Positions 45,356 through 56,513 of a stretch of DNA of 64,000 nt are shown in pieces. The notes under the pieces are model-generated. The model had not been told where the DNA came from. It did no database searches and worked only from the letters and a program-made list of their open reading frames with translations. The stretch comes from Marinilabilia rubra (GTDB lineage: Bacteria > Bacteroidota > Bacteroidia > Bacteroidales > Marinilabiliaceae). Made by a program: the position numbers and the translations under genes. The stretch lies in NCBI RefSeq assembly GCF_003121985.1, contig NZ_QEWP01000003.1, positions 248,001 to 312,000 on the forward strand, given 5' to 3'. The stretch's first letter is position 1. Each line of letters starts with the position of its first letter.

Positions 45356-46342
45356 CTAAAGGAGAAATTGCGCAGCAACTGTAATCCCGACCAAAAACCA
45401 AAGCATTACTTCCCGCCAGACCCGATGGCTCATTTTATCAAACCAAAAAGTAAGAACGACAGAAGGGCCAATTGCCACAACCGGTGCTAACTCCAATGAG
45501 AAGAAAGGCGTAAGGCATACTGCAGAAGTAAGGAAAATAACCCAGATAATGACCCGAAAATGCTTCCGGGTAATGATCTTCTGCATGGGTAAATACCTGA
45601 AAACATTTATGATCCCCATGAGTGTCAGGACTCCGACAAGAGGCAGATATATCTGTGAGGCTAAATTGTGACTAAACTGACCTGTATTGGACAACAGATT
45701 TAGCACAATAAACAACAGAAACTCCTGGGTAGTTCCAATGATAAAGAAATATCCGGCACTGATAAGAAAAGGCAAAAGAAGCCCAATCAAGCTGGCAATA
45801 AAGGTTCTGATTGTTAACAACCGCAGGACGCCCATCACTACCAACAGCAAGGGATAAAGATACAAGCCCTTGGCATACATTAATGATCCTACACCAACCA
45901 AAACAGCCGCATCAAGAGATCGAATTTCTTTTTTAGTGGATTGGTTGGCACCCATAATCCGCTCAACAGCCAAAATAAAAAACAGTGCAAAAACCCAAAC
46001 TACATGCAAGCGCTGAACAGCTAAAAAACCACTAACCAGTAAAGCGTAAAGCAAAACGGGGAGCACGGATTGCTTTCCCAGCAAACCATAACGGCCAACC
46101 ACACGGTTGACAGAAAATGCTATCATCATGGCCAGCAAATAGGAAAAAGCGGCTGACCAGAAAACACTTTGCCCAAATACAGGACGCACCAACCACTCCC
46201 ACAGGGGCATGGAAATTCCGTCAAAACTTATTGGCTGGACTCCTTCAAATAAAAAAACCCTTACCCAAAACAAGAGAACTATAAAAGGAACCAGAATAAA
46301 AGCGGTTAAATTATTGTTGTGAAGTGTCCTGTAGAGCATCAT
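45356..46342 (-). CDS. polytopic membrane protein, DUF6427-like
   Basis: A 328-residue hydrophobic protein with about 9-10 predicted membrane helices. The opening LFWVRVFLFEGVQPISFDGISMPLWEWL fits the Bacteroidota-specific DUF6427 family as I remember it, whose function is unknown. Its overall layout recalls GT-C-like or lipid-carrier membrane proteins. It starts 5 bases after the purD stop, giving a deacetylase - purD - DUF6427 operon, which puts it next to cell-envelope functions. Confidence 0.7.
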   Translation of the reverse strand: MMLYRTLHNNNLTAFILVPFIVLLFWVRVFLFEGVQPISFDGISMPLWEWLVRPVFGQSVFWSAAFSYLLAMMIAFSVNRVVGRYGLLGKQSVLPVLLYALLVSGFLAVQRLHVVWVFALFFILAVERIMGANQSTKKEIRSLDAAVLVGVGSLMYAKGLYLYPLLLVVMGVLRLLTIRTFIASLIGLLLPFLISAGYFFIIGTTQEFLLFIVLNLLSNTGQFSHNLASQIYLPLVGVLTLMGIINVFRYLPMQKIITRKHFRVIIWVIFLTSAVCLTPFFSLELAPVVAIGPSVVLTFWFDKMSHRVWREVMLWFLVGITVAAQFLL

Positions 46343-48325: not shown

Positions 48326-51300
48326 TTATTCAAAAAAGCCCATTCGTTGCAAACTGTTGTCATATTGTTTGTTCAAACGCTCCAGTAAATCATCCCGCTC
48401 AAAAGTCTCGGCAGTTCTGACAATCTCTCCATAGATCGCCATATTTCTCCGTATTTCAGTCATAACTGTGTTACGTTTTGACGGTGGCAGAGAAAGGAAA
48501 TAATCCAACTCCTGAAAGTTTAATGAAGCAAGCCCTTCCAATATTTCATCACCTTTTTCAGCCATGTCGGCACGATAGTAGCCTTCTGCCAGGAAAATTG
48601 AGAAGTAATTATGCGGAACCTTTTTAGCAGGCAACACATCCATCGCCTTATTCAATACACCAACAGCTTTCTCCCGCTTACCTTCGTCAAGAAGTGCTGT
48701 AGCCAGACGCGCCATGTTATTTCGAATATTAATTGCCATTCTCTGGTGATTCTCGTCGAGATACACACGGGGATCTTTAAAGTTATCCAGATTGTAAACC
48801 TCCATGAAATTATGATAAGCCTTTTCGGTATCCACACGACCAGTCATCCCTTCATTGCTTCCGGCCTTAATGGGAACAATCCGATAACCAAATCCTTCCA
48901 ACTGGAAATAATCCTCCAAACCAACATAATTGTCACTACCAACAGTAACGGCATAGAAAATTGGTCTGTCCCAGTTGTTATGAGACAGCATATCCAAAAC
49001 AATCATCTCATTTTTGAGAAGATAATCACGATCCTGAAGATTGATATGAATAGCCGAATCAATCATATGCGAATATTGCTCACTCACATAACCTTTCTGC
49101 AACAGTTTAAGACTATCGGCTTTTAAAGAAAATGTTTTAGATGGCAGATATTCTACCCGCCCGCTATATCCGGGAACTCGCTTTGTACGTTCATTTTCAC
49201 TTTTCAGAAATCCCATAGCATCTTTCAGATCGGCTTCTCCGGTAACGCGGTCTATTAAATAAACCATATCCCGGGTTCCGGTAACATATTCATCATGGTT
49301 CAATGAAATTGGCAATGGATCTGACTCATATGATTTACGCTTCATCTGGTCGATGTACCAGTCGGTTTGAAGATAACTCAGATTACAAACTCTTACATCT
49401 GTTCTCACACCTTCAACTTCCTGAGCGTACCACAAGGGGAAAGTATCATTATCCCCATTGGTGTATATCACTCCGTCCTCGTCAATTGTATTCAGATAAT
49501 TTATCGCCAAATCCCGGGCAATGGTACGATGCGAACGGTCATGATCATCCCAGTTTTCGGAAGCTAAAACGCCCGGGACAAGCCCCAGAGCCACAAGAGT
49601 GGAAACCACTGCTGCTCCTTTACCTCCCATTAGTTTTCTCAAGCCATCGACCAATGCCAGGACACCTAAACCAATCCAGATGGAAAAAGCATAGAAAGAT
49701 CCGGCATAAGCATAGTCACGCTCACGTGGTTGAAGGGGCGTTTGGTTCAAATATAATACGATGGCCAATCCGGTGAGGAAAAAGAGCAACATAACAATCC
49801 AAAAGCTTTGTTTACCTTGCCTTCCGGAACCATACTGAAATAAAAGCCCTATCAATCCTAACAGAAGTGGCAGGAAAAAGTAGGTATTACGTGCGGGATT
49901 ATTTTTAAGGTGTTCAGGCAATTTACTCTGATCACCATACATGGCGTTATCAATAAAGGGAATTCCGGAGATCCAGTTTCCATGGTGAACCTCCCCATGG
50001 GATTGAATATCATTTTGGCGGCCCGCAAAATTCCACATGAAGTAACGCCAATACATATGCCGCACCTGATAATTGAAGAAAAAGCTTAGGTTCTCTCCGA
50101 ATGTGGGCAACTGGATGGTTTTCGGACTTCCTGTCTCATCGGTTACCCTTACCGACTGCCCCTCAATATTAGCCCATCTTTTATATTCTTGAATATGGTT
50201 AGGCTGCCGGCTGTACATCCTTGGAAATATGGTGGTCGTCTTATCGTTAAAAACATATTTAGGTCGATGCTGAACGGTCACATATTCTCCATCCTTTTTA
50301 ATTCGGACAGGCGCACCTTTTTCTTCCTGGGAAGCTTTACGGTCGATTTGTGAGTTGAAATATTCCCCCACTATAAGCGGACGGTCACCGTATTGCTCAC
50401 GATTTAAATAAGAAATGAGCGAAAACAAGTTATCAGGAGAGTTCTGATCCATAGTTGGTTCTGCAGATGAACGGATCACTATCAATGCAAAGGATGAATA
50501 GCCAAAAATGATAACGGTAATGGCCGTAAGGATGGTATTGAGAACCACCTTCTTCTTTTTGAAGGAAAAATAAATTCCATAAATCAATCCTCCAATTAAA
50601 AGAATTCCGTAAACCAGCAATCCTGAATTAAAAGGAAGCCCCATGCCATTGACAAATGCCAACTCAAAAGCACCGGCAATTTTGGGTACTCCCGGAATAA
50701 TTCCGTATAGAATAAAAAGTAAAGCAACAGCAGAAAGAACCAGTGCACGGATGGTATTCTTACGGTTGATTTCAAACTTTTTGAAATAATATACCATTGC
50801 TATGGCGGGAATGGCCAAAAGGTTAAGTAAGTGAACACCTATGGAGAGCCCCATTAAGTATGCAATCAATATTAACCACCGGTTGGAATGAGGTTGATCT
50901 GCGACGTTTTCCCATTTGAGAATAGCCCAGAAAACCATAGCTGTAAACAGACTGGACATACCGTACACTTCGCCTTCAACAGCGGAAAACCAAAATGTAT
51001 CGGAAAAAGTGTAAGTCAAGGCTCCTACTAGTCCGCTGCCTAGTACAGCCCAGTAGCGCCAGCTCTCAGGATTCTCCTGATTGTCAACAAATATTTTCCG
51101 GGCCAAATGTGTAATGGTCCAGAACAAGAAGGCAATTGTCATAGCACTTGCCAGACCAGACATGGCGTTGATAGTTGCGGCTACATACGTTTCATCGGGG
51201 GCAAACAATGTAAAGAAACGTCCCATCAACATAAAGAATGGCGCCCCCGGAGGGTGACCTACCAATAATTTATAGGATGCAGAAATAAACTCACCACAAT

Positions 51301-51403
51301 CCCAGAAGCTGGTCGTAGGTTCTATGGTCAGAAGATAAACAATGGCTGAAATTAAGAAGGTAAGCCAGCCAAAAGCAAGGTTGAACTTTTTGTATTGTCT
51401 CAT
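48326..51403 (-). CDS. DUF2723 GT-C-type membrane protein (paralogue 1)
   Basis: Large protein (1026 aa) with about 12-13 N-terminal membrane helices and a soluble C-terminal half with TPR-like helices (about 880-1020). The start at 51403 (MRQYKKFNLAFGWLTFLI) is chosen because the 28 residues encoded from 51487 do not resemble the family. The first extracytoplasmic loop has the GT-C acid motif TSFWDCGEFI followed by GHPPGAPFFMLMGRFF, as in protein O-mannosyltransferase-like enzymes, and RERDYAYAGSFYAFSIW is strongly shared with paralogue 2. Glycosyl transfer from a lipid-linked donor is the likely role (fold-based inference). A TATTTTTG promoter box lies upstream at 51544-51551. Confidence 0.88.
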   Translation of the reverse strand: MRQYKKFNLAFGWLTFLISAIVYLLTIEPTTSFWDCGEFISASYKLLVGHPPGAPFFMLMGRFFTLFAPDETYVAATINAMSGLASAMTIAFLFWTITHLARKIFVDNQENPESWRYWAVLGSGLVGALTYTFSDTFWFSAVEGEVYGMSSLFTAMVFWAILKWENVADQPHSNRWLILIAYLMGLSIGVHLLNLLAIPAIAMVYYFKKFEINRKNTIRALVLSAVALLFILYGIIPGVPKIAGAFELAFVNGMGLPFNSGLLVYGILLIGGLIYGIYFSFKKKKVVLNTILTAITVIIFGYSSFALIVIRSSAEPTMDQNSPDNLFSLISYLNREQYGDRPLIVGEYFNSQIDRKASQEEKGAPVRIKKDGEYVTVQHRPKYVFNDKTTTIFPRMYSRQPNHIQEYKRWANIEGQSVRVTDETGSPKTIQLPTFGENLSFFFNYQVRHMYWRYFMWNFAGRQNDIQSHGEVHHGNWISGIPFIDNAMYGDQSKLPEHLKNNPARNTYFFLPLLLGLIGLLFQYGSGRQGKQSFWIVMLLFFLTGLAIVLYLNQTPLQPRERDYAYAGSFYAFSIWIGLGVLALVDGLRKLMGGKGAAVVSTLVALGLVPGVLASENWDDHDRSHRTIARDLAINYLNTIDEDGVIYTNGDNDTFPLWYAQEVEGVRTDVRVCNLSYLQTDWYIDQMKRKSYESDPLPISLNHDEYVTGTRDMVYLIDRVTGEADLKDAMGFLKSENERTKRVPGYSGRVEYLPSKTFSLKADSLKLLQKGYVSEQYSHMIDSAIHINLQDRDYLLKNEMIVLDMLSHNNWDRPIFYAVTVGSDNYVGLEDYFQLEGFGYRIVPIKAGSNEGMTGRVDTEKAYHNFMEVYNLDNFKDPRVYLDENHQRMAINIRNNMARLATALLDEGKREKAVGVLNKAMDVLPAKKVPHNYFSIFLAEGYYRADMAEKGDEILEGLASLNFQELDYFLSLPPSKRNTVMTEIRRNMAIYGEIVRTAETFERDDLLERLNKQYDNSLQRMGFFE

Positions 51404-51543
51404 TGTATAATGTTTTCCTTCGTTTCTGAATGAAAGTCGAACAAACGCAATAAAAAACTCACAACCAATCTCAGGACCTGTATTCATCTTATCTCATAAG
51501 AGTCAAAATCTACACAGATCAAATTGATTGATTACAAGTTTGC

Positions 51544-51608: not shown

Positions 51609-53399
51609 TCAGGCATAAGAAACTTCTGCCATGGTTAGCTTCTCTTCCAGAGTTTCGATCATCTGCAATGCTTCATGGCATGAATTCGAGAAAGAATCTT
51701 TGTTTTGAGCAAACAATTCGCGGTAATACTGAATGCCCTCTTTAAGAGAGCGGAGGAACTTCTTATTATTCAATTTAGCCTTATCATCATTTTCCTCCAG
51801 CTTTTTAAGCTGATTATTGAAATAATCCACATAGATTCCCAGCTCTTTCACAAATACATTAGGGCGGTCTTTACGCTCAAGCAAATCGTTTGCTCCATAA
51901 ATGTGCCCGACCATCTCTTTCAAAGATGCCTCACGAGTGAAATAAGCCATATTAGGCCCCGGGCAAACTGAAACACCCTTGCCTTCAAATTTCGTGGAAA
52001 TCCCATTGGCTTTCAAAGCCGAAGTACCCAGCCCAACACAAATACAAGCCTTCTCAGTTACCTCTTTTGTGGCTTTGTCAATGGCAGCCTGCTCAGTATA
52101 AGTAGTCTCAATATCAAGAATTTTATCGCGCTGATACTGGCGTGAAGCAGTACAAACAGGCTTTCCGGGGAATTCACTGTTAATGGTGCAATACTGCTTT
52201 ATACAATGGCTTCCCGGGGTTTGATTTCTGACGTTCCTGAATTTCTCCTCGTCTTTTGTATTGCCCCTCAGGTTATTGAAAGGCACTCCAAGAGGAGATA
52301 TATTGCTAAGATACAAATCCTTCTCACGGGCTGAAGCCAGTTTATCAAGCGTTTCCTGATCAATACTTACGGCTTCAGGCACCAGCATAAAGGGTGTACC
52401 CCATCCCACTGAATCAAGTTGGTAGTGATTTAAAAGAAAAGAATGTTCTTCAGCCGTTCCCACACCTCCCTGAGCGGTAATCCGAAGTTCGGGATTGATG
52501 GCCGGACAAGGCTTATTTTTTGCAGCCAATGCACTTTGGAGTGCCTCAAACTGGCCATCCACAAGTTGTTTTCGTTTGCTTTTAAATTCCTCAAGAACAG
52601 GTCCAATAAGATTTCCTTGCGAAGCAAAGGCGTGTCCGCCACAATTCAGCCCGGATTCGATACGGAATTCTGAAACCCAGATTCCTTTTTTGGCCAACAT
52701 TTTTCCCTGAACCATAGCAGAGCGGAAATCACTTACTTTGATAATTACTCTCTTTTTAATGTATCCGCTTTCATCAGGATAAAAGTCGTCCCATTTTTCA
52801 ATGTAGCTAAACAACCGGGGGTTCATTCCTGCGGATAAAACAACTGAAGATTCCAGCGTACTCTTAGCGAATCCGCGAAGAGCTGCATGGGCATCATTGT
52901 ATTCTACCGGAAGTGGCTCAGAACCCGAATAGTTAGTACGATCGAGCTTGGTCATGATATTAACATCAATCTGTCCAGGATGCAAATTGGCAGCTACCCA
53001 GTTCTTAAGTTCCTTAATCCCGGCATTCGCTTTCAAATGCAGATAGGTCTGTTTAACCATGGAAAAGTCAGGCAACAGATCGAAATACCTGTCCACTTCT
53101 TCGCTCTTTTTATTAAAAGAGCTTTTCATATTATCGATTCGGGATTTAACCATCCCGTCCATCAAATCAAGAAAGGCCGTTATTCTCTTAGCCCTGAAAT
53201 CTTCCATTTTCATTGTAATTCCCTGAAAGGGAAGATTGGCTTTTTTGCTGTGAAATTCTCGCATTTTTTCCATCAGCATGTCATCAACTAAAGACACGAC
53301 TGAAGAAATTCCCAAATGGGCCAGCTTTAAAGGGCTATCAATAGTATAACCAATACCCATTACCGGCACATGAAAGGTGTGTGGATTGTAATTGTGCAT
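51609..53399 (-). CDS. conserved cysteine-rich protein of unknown function, 596 aa
   Basis: I do not recognise an assigned function. It is cytoplasmic (no signal or membrane helix). The region about 230-370 (RIESGLNCGGHAFASQGN, then ITAQGGVGTAEEHSFLL, then GWGTPFMLVPEAV) resembles a flavin-binding TIM barrel of the nitronate monooxygenase or related type. A cysteine cluster follows: Cys399 and Cys404 (HCIKQYC), Cys416, Cys452 and Cys454 (ACICVG) and Cys479 (VCPGPN), which could hold an iron-sulfur cluster or zinc. The C-terminus is helical and charged. It is encoded between two DUF2723 genes on the same strand, with gaps of about 200 bases on each side. An oxidoreductase is a guess; the protein looks intact and conserved in style. 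Confidence 0.7.
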   Translation of the reverse strand: MHNYNPHTFHVPVMGIGYTIDSPLKLAHLGISSVVSLVDDMLMEKMREFHSKKANLPFQGITMKMEDFRAKRITAFLDLMDGMVKSRIDNMKSSFNKKSEEVDRYFDLLPDFSMVKQTYLHLKANAGIKELKNWVAANLHPGQIDVNIMTKLDRTNYSGSEPLPVEYNDAHAALRGFAKSTLESSVVLSAGMNPRLFSYIEKWDDFYPDESGYIKKRVIIKVSDFRSAMVQGKMLAKKGIWVSEFRIESGLNCGGHAFASQGNLIGPVLEEFKSKRKQLVDGQFEALQSALAAKNKPCPAINPELRITAQGGVGTAEEHSFLLNHYQLDSVGWGTPFMLVPEAVSIDQETLDKLASAREKDLYLSNISPLGVPFNNLRGNTKDEEKFRNVRNQTPGSHCIKQYCTINSEFPGKPVCTASRQYQRDKILDIETTYTEQAAIDKATKEVTEKACICVGLGTSALKANGISTKFEGKGVSVCPGPNMAYFTREASLKEMVGHIYGANDLLERKDRPNVFVKELGIYVDYFNNQLKKLEENDDKAKLNNKKFLRSLKEGIQYYRELFAQNKDSFSNSCHEALQMIETLEEKLTMAEVSYA

Positions 53400-53597: not shown

Positions 53598-56513
53598 TCA
53601 AAAATCACACATTGAGTGCAATTCCATATCAATTTCTATGGTAACATCTTTCAATTCCAACTCCTTAGCAAGAGACTTCAACTCCTTGAAAAACCCGCAA
53701 TATTTCCGGCGGATATGTTCGGTATCGAAACCTGAATAAAAATAAAAGTAAACATCCTGCAAATTGATGTACGATATATTTCTAACCAGCTGCTCAGCCT
53801 GCTCTCTCTCACCACTCAGCATCAGCAACCGGGCAGCATCAAGCATACCGGCCTGTTCCTGATAAGGTGAATACGGCCATTCATCCAGACTTTTCCGAAG
53901 GACCTCAGAAGCCTTTTTTTCCTCTCCATATTCCAGGAGATCTCTCGCAAGATCAAGCGACATCTGGCGATAGCCCGATAATGACAATGCTTGTCGGCAG
54001 GAATAATCATACCAGGTATCCTCTCTTGAAATCTGAATGCTGTCTGAAAAAAGCGCCAATTCCTTCATTACTGAATTTCGACCCTTTTGAGAATTCTCTT
54101 CTCCACCAAGCTTCCATATCAAACCATGGCTCACAAAACGGTTTTCCAAACCATACAGGGAAGAGTATTCCACATTTCGTGTAAAACAAACGGGGTGCAC
54201 GGAAGCATTGGTGAAAATAAAATCCATAAGGGCTAAAGTTCCGGAGGAAAGGAAATTGGCCTGAACATTCCATTGCAAGGTCTTCCCCTGCTGTGTTCGT
54301 AGTGTCCATATGGGATTCAAGTCGTGCCCAAAAAAGCCATCAGGTTCTTTTCTTTCTGTTTCCGACGAGGCTAACTCCGAAAGGATCTTCTTGCCTGCCA
54401 GTCCACTTGAATGCATTCTTGAAACCCGGAAAAACTCAAGTGCATGCTGCCGGTAAAATGAAATTGGAAGGGTCAATTGCAGGTTAGATCCTCCACTTGT
54501 TTCATTTGTCATTTGCTCAACATACCAGTCGGTTCCCAAAAGTCCTATATTTACAAGGTGAACATCGGGCCGCACTTTCTCCACCTGCTGTGCGTACCAT
54601 AACGGATAGGTATCATTATCACCGTAAGTAAACAAAATGGCATTGGGAGGACAACTTCTAAGCTGAGAAGCAGCCAGATCCCTTGCCAGATATCTTTCAG
54701 ACCGGTCATGATCATTCAGATTAACCGAAAACATTAACCCGGGACCTGCCATGATCAACAACAGCCCTGATAAACTGAGAGTTAACAATGATCCGGAAAA
54801 TTGCAGAACTTTCTTCAGTATTCCGTAAATTCCCATACCTGCAAACAGCGACATTGTCATAAAAGCTCCTACAAAAACATAGTCGCGCTCCCGTGGTTCA
54901 TAGGGAGGTTGATTCAGGTAGAGCACAATGGCAGGCCCCATCATCACAAACATTAAAATAAGCAAGGTCAGAACATTCATTCTCTTCCCATTTCCGGATC
55001 TAAGAAGAAACACGCCCCCCAGCAGCACTAGCAAAAGAGGAATTCCAAAATAGAAATTGGCTGCGGGGCTATATTGATCCTGCGAAGAAAGATATTCCCG
55101 GTTCCCGAGAAAATACCTGTCAATAAAATCGATACCTGAGGCCCAATTCCCCGATAGAATATCACCATGTCCCTGATGGTCATTTTGTCGGCCCACTAAA
55201 TTCCACATAAGATACCTCAGAAAATTATGTCCCATCTGATACTTCAGAAAGAAATCCAATTGATGGGCAAAAGAAGGCTCTTTCTCTTTAGCATTGAGTC
55301 CTGTCCACCATTCATACCCCTCAAGGTGATAGGCCTGGCGACTGTACATCCGGGGAAACCATACATAATCATCTGCCTTAAAATTTAACCGGGCCCCTGC
55401 TGGTTTCTTTTGGTATTTGCGGTCCTTTTCATCGAAATAAAAGGCCTGATATTCTTCCCAGTTTTTTACAGTTGCACCGGCATGAGGTCCATACAGCAAA
55501 GGACGGCTGCCATATTGAGTTCTGTTAATATAATTGTTTAGCGAAAACACATTGTCCGGATCATTCATATTGATGGCAGGCCCGGCCGATGCCCTCACAG
55601 GCACCAATGCATAAGAAAACCAGCCCATGAAGATCAAGGCTGAGGTCACAAAAATAAGATGAAGAACCTGCTGCTTCCTAAAAGTAAAATGTATTCCTGC
55701 CACATGAATACCCATTAATATAATGACCCACAGCCACAATCCGGAATGCTGCGGCATTCCGACACCATTAACCAGAAATAATTCAAGCTTCATGGCAGGC
55801 CACAACCCATAAGTCACAAACCCGAAAAACAAAAGCCCGAGTAACAATACCCCAACCAGCAAAGCTTTAACTGTGATTATAGGCAGATGGCCTGATTTCT
55901 TCCAGAAAAATATCAGAACAAAAACCGGAACCAGTAACAAATTCAGTAAATGAACGGCAATTGAAAGACCTAAAAAATAGACACCCAGAAAAAACAGGCG
56001 GGATTCATTATTCTCCCTTGTATACCATAATAGAAAGACCCAAAGTGTAAGTACTGAAAAAAATAACGACAGAGCATAAACTTCGGCTTCAACGGCTGAA
56101 TACCAAAAAGAATCAGTAAATGCGAACAAGAGAGCACCACCTGAAGCAGCTATTTGACCAATACAATAGTGCTGTCCTCCCTCCCGTGCATCGGACAAGC
56201 TTATTAATATCAGCAATATCTTATAGATGAAAAATACCGCAAAAGCAGAGGCGACCACTGATAAGAAGTTAACAAATGGAGCCACTAATACCGGAGTGGG
56301 AGCAAAAGAAGCCAATACACGGGCCAACAACAAATAAAGAGGCGCGCCGGGAGGGTGAGGAACCTGAAGACCGTTCGCTGAAGCAATAAACTCACCGCTG
56401 TCCCAAAAATTGGTTGTTGGCGACATGGTAATGGCATAAATTGCCAGGCTGAAGAAAAAAACCAACAACCCTGAGAGATTTTTTTTCAAAAAAACCGGTA
56501 CCCTATCCATCAA
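53598..56513 (-). CDS. DUF2723 GT-C-type membrane protein (paralogue 2)
   Basis: 971 aa, second DUF2723 protein, with about 12 membrane helices then a soluble C-terminal part. It shares with paralogue 1 the motif TTNFWDSGEFIASANGLQVPHPPGAP near residue 33, the FWYSAVEAEVYALS stretch, YNRTQYG-type segments, LNQPPYEPRERDYVFVGAFM near 545 and FTYGDNDTYPLWYAQQVEKVRPDVHLVN near 640. The C-terminal helices (about 850-950) look TPR-like. It is the first gene of the minus-strand block and diverges from tRNA-Gln. Two such proteins suggest two acceptors or two steps in envelope or protein glycosylation (inference). Confidence 0.88.
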   Translation of the reverse strand: MMDRVPVFLKKNLSGLLVFFFSLAIYAITMSPTTNFWDSGEFIASANGLQVPHPPGAPLYLLLARVLASFAPTPVLVAPFVNFLSVVASAFAVFFIYKILLILISLSDAREGGQHYCIGQIAASGGALLFAFTDSFWYSAVEAEVYALSLFFSVLTLWVFLLWYTRENNESRLFFLGVYFLGLSIAVHLLNLLLVPVFVLIFFWKKSGHLPIITVKALLVGVLLLGLLFFGFVTYGLWPAMKLELFLVNGVGMPQHSGLWLWVIILMGIHVAGIHFTFRKQQVLHLIFVTSALIFMGWFSYALVPVRASAGPAINMNDPDNVFSLNNYINRTQYGSRPLLYGPHAGATVKNWEEYQAFYFDEKDRKYQKKPAGARLNFKADDYVWFPRMYSRQAYHLEGYEWWTGLNAKEKEPSFAHQLDFFLKYQMGHNFLRYLMWNLVGRQNDHQGHGDILSGNWASGIDFIDRYFLGNREYLSSQDQYSPAANFYFGIPLLLVLLGGVFLLRSGNGKRMNVLTLLILMFVMMGPAIVLYLNQPPYEPRERDYVFVGAFMTMSLFAGMGIYGILKKVLQFSGSLLTLSLSGLLLIMAGPGLMFSVNLNDHDRSERYLARDLAASQLRSCPPNAILFTYGDNDTYPLWYAQQVEKVRPDVHLVNIGLLGTDWYVEQMTNETSGGSNLQLTLPISFYRQHALEFFRVSRMHSSGLAGKKILSELASSETERKEPDGFFGHDLNPIWTLRTQQGKTLQWNVQANFLSSGTLALMDFIFTNASVHPVCFTRNVEYSSLYGLENRFVSHGLIWKLGGEENSQKGRNSVMKELALFSDSIQISREDTWYDYSCRQALSLSGYRQMSLDLARDLLEYGEEKKASEVLRKSLDEWPYSPYQEQAGMLDAARLLMLSGEREQAEQLVRNISYINLQDVYFYFYSGFDTEHIRRKYCGFFKELKSLAKELELKDVTIEIDMELHSMCDF

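Follow-up and report, generated by a model that had tools for sequence, protein, structure and literature searches.

A widespread Bacteroidota family of predicted FMN-type TIM-barrel proteins with a cysteine-rich subdomain and sequence kinship to FabX

Among the described enzymes, the closest comparison for the family considered here is FabX of Helicobacter pylori, an FMN- and [4Fe-4S]-containing acyl-ACP dehydrogenase/isomerase of unsaturated fatty acid synthesis that uses O2 as its acceptor and requires it in vitro. According to PMC8626469, His182 and the FMN take hydrogens from decanoyl-ACP, and the cluster ligands are C300, C304, C308 and C320, the cluster being not wholly lost in C304 mutants. 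The cluster domain (267-363) stands in place of the NAD(P)H motif of FabK, and residues K152, K159, R160 and R164 of helix alpha7 contact ACP (PMC8626469, section 9). In N. gonorrhoeae, the FabX homologue NGO1024 is reported in PMC11300592 to be indispensable for making unsaturated fatty acids anaerobically, with an acceptor given there as not known.

Here we describe a protein family with a set of invariant residues, a predicted FMN-type barrel fold, a kinship to FabX at the level of sequence profiles and, in part of its members, a low-oxygen gene neighbourhood. The representative considered here lies in a 64,000-nucleotide stretch of Marinilabilia rubra DNA (the window), where a 596-codon open reading frame at 51609..53399 on the minus strand encodes a predicted FMN-type TIM-barrel protein of 596 aa with a Cys-rich subdomain; the plus-strand reading of the same interval is interrupted by stops. 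It is flanked on the same strand by two genes of membrane proteins matching PF11028 (the former DUF2723), at 48326..51487 (E 1.3e-77) and 53598..56513 (E 9.5e-48), with spacings by ORF coordinates of about 200 bp upstream and about 120 bp downstream, in agreement with the earlier note on this DNA, which had placed a 596-residue frame between two DUF2723 genes on one strand. No family of Pfam or of the curated level of NCBIfam matched the 596-aa protein, and neither the single sequence nor a profile found a significant relative among PDB sequences. The PF03060 (NMO) and TIGR02814 (PfaD) models gave no match to it at E up to 1, and none of the five places found by PF03060 in the window's own genome is this gene. 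A Pfam scan of 42 members likewise gave no consistent match; the best E values, 4e-4 for KIX and 8e-4 for Spc29, came from matches present in only 2 or 3 of the 42 members each and were taken as chance. Literature searches on FabX or FabK in Bacteroidetes, on anaerobic unsaturated fatty acids in "Flavobacteri" and on UfaA, the name by which NGO1024 goes, returned no title or abstract opening on the family. Elsewhere in the window, a 328-aa membrane-like protein (45356..46342, minus strand) matched no Pfam family at E up to 1, and three loci have relatives of it at about the same distance.

The gene was found in 142 of the 395 sampled Bacteroidota genomes, so that the word "conserved" used in the earlier note holds for the gene itself. 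All holders except G095 and G152 have a single match per genome, and the relatives are at least 42% identical across most of their length, bar fragments in G290 and G095. Plasmid and phage collections searched at E 1e-5 contained no relative of the protein. Two intact copies lie in G152 (on contigs C25 and C31). The second copy of G095 (C1:4371170-4372630) is decayed, with stops, G290 has a fragment only (C30:7920-8267), and the copy in G002 (C1:2180025-2181755) contains one in-frame TAA.

Conservation does not extend to the apparent trio with the PF11028 genes. Among 92 family loci (loci under 9 kb and L010, identical with L024, were left out), a PF11028 cluster was observed at four, all of them from Marinilabilia, and the order PF11028-gene-PF11028 was found in 5/5 same-genus genomes searched, the window's own included; these two sets are not independent, because the coordinates of L001 and L003 coincide with those of G437 and G438, respectively. 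In five holders of the same taxonomic family outside the genus (G439, G442, G443, G444 and G445) the gene is unlinked from PF11028 genes. Moreover, in G445 two PF11028 matches (C62:3754-8921) lie about 350 bp apart, without room for the gene between them. This adjoining pair is possibly the older arrangement, and it looks as if the gene was inserted between formerly adjacent PF11028 genes, a reading drawn from one genome, G445, with 7% contamination; loss of the gene from G445 is also possible, because G439, G440 and G400 have their two PF11028 matches on separate contigs. The proposal of the earlier note, in which the product may synthesize or alter the donor used by the adjacent GT-C proteins, has the adjacency in all five same-genus genomes in its favour. 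Across Bacteroidota, the neighbourhood is not conserved, an outcome that the earlier note itself had named as refuting, and since the trio is confined to one genus the idea fails; with the gene unlinked in five close holders and both GT-C genes of G445 adjoining without it, the proposal is largely refuted and now scarcely credible.

The AlphaFold2 model built from the 42-member alignment (pLDDT 89.6, pTM 0.90) gave 47 Foldseek matches at E up to 0.001, all from the FMN barrel group, namely PfaD, FabX, trans-acting enoyl reductases, FabK, NMO and fatty acid synthases. The protein almost certainly has an FMN-type barrel fold, and the initial impression of a TIM barrel is borne out by these matches together with the VIA-align comparisons. 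The best VIA-align match was H. pylori FabX (9lt5) with Z 24.2, 332 residues of FabX 12-363 being aligned at 3.1 A up to model residue 503, with 17% identity across the aligned fold. As the 332 residues are drawn from 352 positions, the alignment includes at least 77 of the 97 residues of the FabX cluster subdomain (267-363). The PfaD chain 4z9r_B scored Z 22.9 (361 residues aligned at 6.8 A), and NMO and an NADH:quinone reductase with the same fold scored Z 19-22. The FabX and PfaD scores lie within about 1.3 Z, and therefore the fold alone hardly chooses between them. Indeed, an enoyl-thioester reductase of the FabK or PfaD type, using NAD(P)H to saturate double bonds and keeping its cysteines for structure, would be served nearly as well by the fold, and several alignments with PfaD or trans-acting enoyl reductases extend into the C-terminal helices, to model residues 577-585, past the end of the FabX alignment.

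Modelled alone, the Cys subdomain had a pLDDT of 84.5. Its superposition on FabX 264-360 covered 91 residues at 3.6 A, but with a Z of 2.1, level with that of unrelated chains; Foldseek found nothing for it under E 0.001, and FabX was not among the 18 matches listed. Two helical regions of the full model, 40-138 and 515-595, we read as additions to the barrel. Both these additions and the low identity to FabX leave room for a flavin or Fe-S enzyme whose substrate is a different acyl thioester, a polyisoprenyl thioester or some unknown small molecule, as substrate specificity is not readable from the fold. Nothing specific speaks against such a substrate; we consider it quite unlikely.

For a comparison of profiles, 12 FabX proteins were collected from genomes of the same order. 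Their four cluster cysteines are invariant, and one same-order FabX matched the H. pylori FabX chains by phmmer at E 8e-72. The family and the 12 Bacteroidota FabX were aligned by hhalign colinearly with a probability of 80.6 (P 1.3e-5), against 1.0 (P 0.051) for a control set of 13 FabK and at best 2.4 (P 0.02) for 36 unrelated clusters. This alignment paired VNIM with VNVM, GGH with GGH, QGGVGT (residues 310-315; 52455..52472, minus strand, as for all features below) with GGIYTG, WGTPF (residues 333-337; 52389..52403) with MGTIF, and SPLGVPF with SPVGMPG. By reference to the superfamily, QGGVGT is the presumed FMN phosphate loop, and WGTPF is probably a second phosphate-binding stretch. With a 72-member alignment the score against FabX was 79.8 (P 1.4e-5), along a path in which the His motifs are unpaired and C399 is off by one residue. 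The two paths differ, and single pairings are therefore less certain than the kinship to FabX. The profile of the Cys subdomain alone matched FabX weakly (probability 3.4, P 0.013). As judged from sequence profiles, the kinship to FabX is specific, standing above FabK and the 36 unrelated families, with PfaD and NMO compared by fold only. At the same time, the FabX motif C-x3-C-x3-C-x(7-11)-C and a match to PF03060 are both absent from the window protein, which is therefore not a member of FabX; similar to FabX in its predicted fold, active site and context, it is best classed as a new, divergent branch within the fold group of FabX, PfaD, FabK and NMO.

Conservation was assessed on an alignment of 84 sequences, reduced to 72 once duplicates were removed. 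E248, C253, G254, G255 and H256 are present in 72/72 members. They belong to the active-site His motif ESGLNCGGHAF (residues 248-258; 52626..52658), in which H256 is placed at FabX H182 and C253 lies within ESGLNCGGHAFA, the motif around the active His. The Cys-rich subdomain itself (residues 366-503; 51891..52304) appears, in the whole model, at the place of the [4Fe-4S] subdomain of FabX. In it, C399 (52203..52205) aligns with the first cluster Cys of Bacteroidota FabX (H. pylori C300) and C416 (52152..52154) with the last (H. pylori C320), the pair C452-x-C454 (52038..52046) lies beyond the part aligned with FabX, and C479 (51963..51965) opens an invariant CPGPN motif, seen unchanged in 44 members. 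Between the two aligned cysteines, the first hhalign path puts the variable C404 on the second FabX cluster Cys (H. pylori C304, the one whose mutants keep part of the cluster) and S408 on the third. The spacing in the window protein is C399-x16-C416-x35-C452-x-C454-x24-C479, and each of these five cysteines is conserved in 72/72 members. Of the six clustered cysteines listed from the sequence alone, all were correctly positioned and five proved invariant, while C404 is a Cys in only 6/72 members; the list had passed over C253. At the level of predicted fold and conserved residues, the accompanying suggestion of a metal- or flavin-dependent enzyme agrees with the FMN enzymes FabX, PfaD, FabK and NMO and with the invariant Cys set.

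The region placed at the ACP-docking helix alpha7 of FabX comprises residues 221-238, KVSDFRSAMVQGKMLAKK (52686..52739), with basic residues R226, K233, K237 and K238. The distance from the serine that precedes this helix to the active His is 33 residues in 12/12 FabX and in all 69 members holding both anchor strings, three of the 72 rows being left out for lack of one of them. Position +3, that of FabX K152, is basic in 12/12 FabX and 69/69 members, a count made post hoc. The members are also basic at +10 (62/69), +14 (67/69) and +15 (68/69), with 2/12 FabX basic at +10 and 2/12 at +15, so that +3 is the only basic position common to all 12 FabX and all 69 members.

Against the reductase alternative, the FabK profile comparison is at background, and the five invariant cysteines appear to lie where FabX, unlike FabK, has its cluster. 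In addition, a FabK-size gene matching PF03060 is already present in the window's genome, and TIGR02814 at E 1e-20 matched 0/198 Bacteroidota genomes, the window's included. An enoyl-thioester reductase of this kind appears rather unlikely to us.

The distribution of FabX was compared with that of the family gene. Canonical FabX, cluster motif included, is frequent in the order (for example, L139-L156): among 41 order genomes it was found in 17 and the family gene in eight, both together being present in one (G416). An 18th order FabX, in G427, was assigned by length only, its stretch being without an intact motif-bearing ORF. In the phylum sample FabX was detected in 5/395 genomes, none of which also holds the gene of the 596-aa protein, and no FabX was found in the window's genome. 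With relatedness ignored throughout, the combined one-sided P for exclusion is 0.011 to 0.015, and that for the order set alone, with the window's own genome left out, is 0.08 to 0.11. These values are suggestive of a tendency of the two genes to exclude each other, though not strictly. A second PF03060 match, of FabK size, was seen in 12 of the 17 FabX-bearing order genomes.

No neighbour is universal among the 92 loci. The commonest neighbour clusters, signalling proteins and ABC ATPases (15 loci each), are generic and were set aside. Recurrent neighbours are RIC (14 loci), Rrf2 (13), a cluster of Cu nitrite reductase-like proteins mixed with c-type cytochromes (11), HemN (10), Nos genes (7-10) and cbb3 oxidase (4-7). 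RIC, HemN, NosZ and Rrf2 were confirmed by curated models, the nitrite reductase-like protein was below the cut-off, and further clusters are presumably NosD, NosY, NosL, CcoN, CcoI and FixG. The adjacency to RIC comes from 13 loci in family f25 and one in f5, and nine of the ten loci with HemN also belong to f25. Inspected by eye, the clusters seen in at least four loci contained no recognised fatty-acid gene.

A gene of low-oxygen metabolism or denitrification was located near 19/40 loci and near 1/40 control stretches from the same 40 genomes (p 3e-6), leaving 21/40 loci with none; the ratio is 9/29 to 1/29 without f25 (p 0.012), with relatedness ignored. When the mixed cluster was left out, the counts were 18/40 and 0/40 (p 6e-7), and 8/29 and 0/29 without f25 (p 0.0045). 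The effect is overstated, because target loci contributed to the profiles, and some of them had been looked at before the genes to be counted were picked. Across genomes, a RIC gene is present in 94/142 holders and 53/253 non-holders (odds ratio 7.4, p 6e-19; relatedness ignored). Next to the gene in the window, none of the genes counted here was seen; RIC of the window's genome lies about 240 kb away on the same contig. FNR-type boxes were not enriched upstream of the gene. The palindrome TGAC-N4-GTCA occurred upstream in 6/94 versus 7/734 cases (p 0.0016), or 19 versus 63 with at most one mismatch (p 0.001); being weak and the fourth of 52 palindromes tested, it was given no weight.

Two further genes were noted near members of the family. 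In five f25 loci (L078, L110, L112, L114 and L119) the next gene downstream, 1.8-2.1 kb from the gene start, is one that we take to be tryptophanase-like, and each of these loci has another copy farther along. A multi-pass-looking protein of about 415 aa occurs in nine loci (L078, L080, L088, L091, L111, L113, L114, L120 and L122), several of which also have denitrification genes; its L091 member had no Pfam match at E 1e-5.

The neighbours RIC, Rrf2, the Cu nitrite reductase-like proteins, the Nos genes and the cbb3 oxidase would suit a redox enzyme of nitrosative or low-oxygen stress, engaged in nitronate or nitroalkane oxidation or in quinone- or NO-linked chemistry rather than in lipid synthesis, and NMO and the NADH:quinone reductase share its fold. 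Such a role fits less well with a profile kinship that points to FabX and not to the FabK set tested, with the apparent retention of a basic ACP-type helix, and with the recurrence of HemN, an O2-independent biosynthetic enzyme, albeit mostly within f25; we regard it as unlikely. HemN carries out without oxygen a step whose alternative form depends on O2. A FabX-like enzyme encoded next to it would offer a route to unsaturated acyl chains that does without oxygen, a pairing nearly confined to f25.

Our preferred reading, to which we assign a rough probability of 0.48, is that the protein is a FabX-like flavoenzyme carrying an Fe-S cluster and producing unsaturated acyl chains under low oxygen, the cofactors and the chemistry being predicted. 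It would be a cytoplasmic flavoenzyme of the FabK/PfaD/NMO/FabX fold working like FabX, and for it we infer the FMN, the cluster and its ligands, the ACP substrate, the direction of the reaction and the acceptor. FMN would sit in the TIM barrel next to H256, and an ACP-borne acyl chain would dock on the basic helix 221-238. H256 and FMN would then take hydrogens from C2 and C3, and the enoyl product, once isomerized to the cis-3 form, would be extended to an unsaturated fatty acid. Electrons would pass to an acceptor through an Fe-S cluster located where FabK binds NAD(P)H and held by C399, C416, C479 and C452 and/or C454; C452, C454 and C479 are the candidate ligands beyond the two that align with FabX cysteines. 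Cells with too little oxygen for desaturases would obtain their unsaturated acyl chains through this enzyme. The O2-independent step of this scheme is borrowed from the report on the gonococcal homologue, because H. pylori FabX uses O2 as its acceptor.

If this FabX-like role is true, Bacteroidota have in it an enzyme with which to make unsaturated fatty acids at low oxygen, and the question of where FabX-type enzymes pass their electrons in the absence of O2 gains a second test case. A stronger version is that the family constitutes a second, unrecognised class of Fe-S acyl-ACP dehydrogenase/isomerase, with another Cys set holding its cluster and a respiratory or other non-O2 acceptor, largely replacing FabX and present in about one third of the sampled Bacteroidota. 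This version is doubtful, its chances falling clearly short of even; if true, facultative and denitrifying Bacteroidota would make unsaturated fatty acids without oxygen. Overall, a widespread family without a Pfam or NCBIfam model now has a specific and testable biochemical proposal.

In comparison with known systems, the predicted protein resembles PfaD (4z9r, 4yx6, 6lkc) and the trans-acting enoyl reductases in fold, with Z of about 20-23 and with some chains reaching its C-terminal helices, and is unlike PfaD in giving no TIGR02814 match. With FabK (4iql, 2z6i) and nitronate monooxygenase (2gjl, 4q4k) it shares the barrel, and with FabK also the GGH motif; it differs from FabK by a profile score at background, FabK having, according to PMC8626469, its NAD(P)H motif at the place of the FabX cluster subdomain. 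The parallel with N. gonorrhoeae NGO1024 lies in the proposed role. Compared to H. pylori FabX (HP0773; 9lt5, 7e1q) and Bacteroidota FabX, it is longer (596 versus about 363 aa), 17% identical across the fold, equipped with extra helical regions, without a PF03060 match and without C-x3-C-x3-C, and has the other invariant cysteines C253, C452, C454 and C479. It nevertheless appears to have in common with FabX the FMN-type TIM barrel with a His in a GGH motif, an alpha7-like basic helix at equal spacing, the aligned first and last cluster cysteines and, in the model, a Cys subdomain in the same place.
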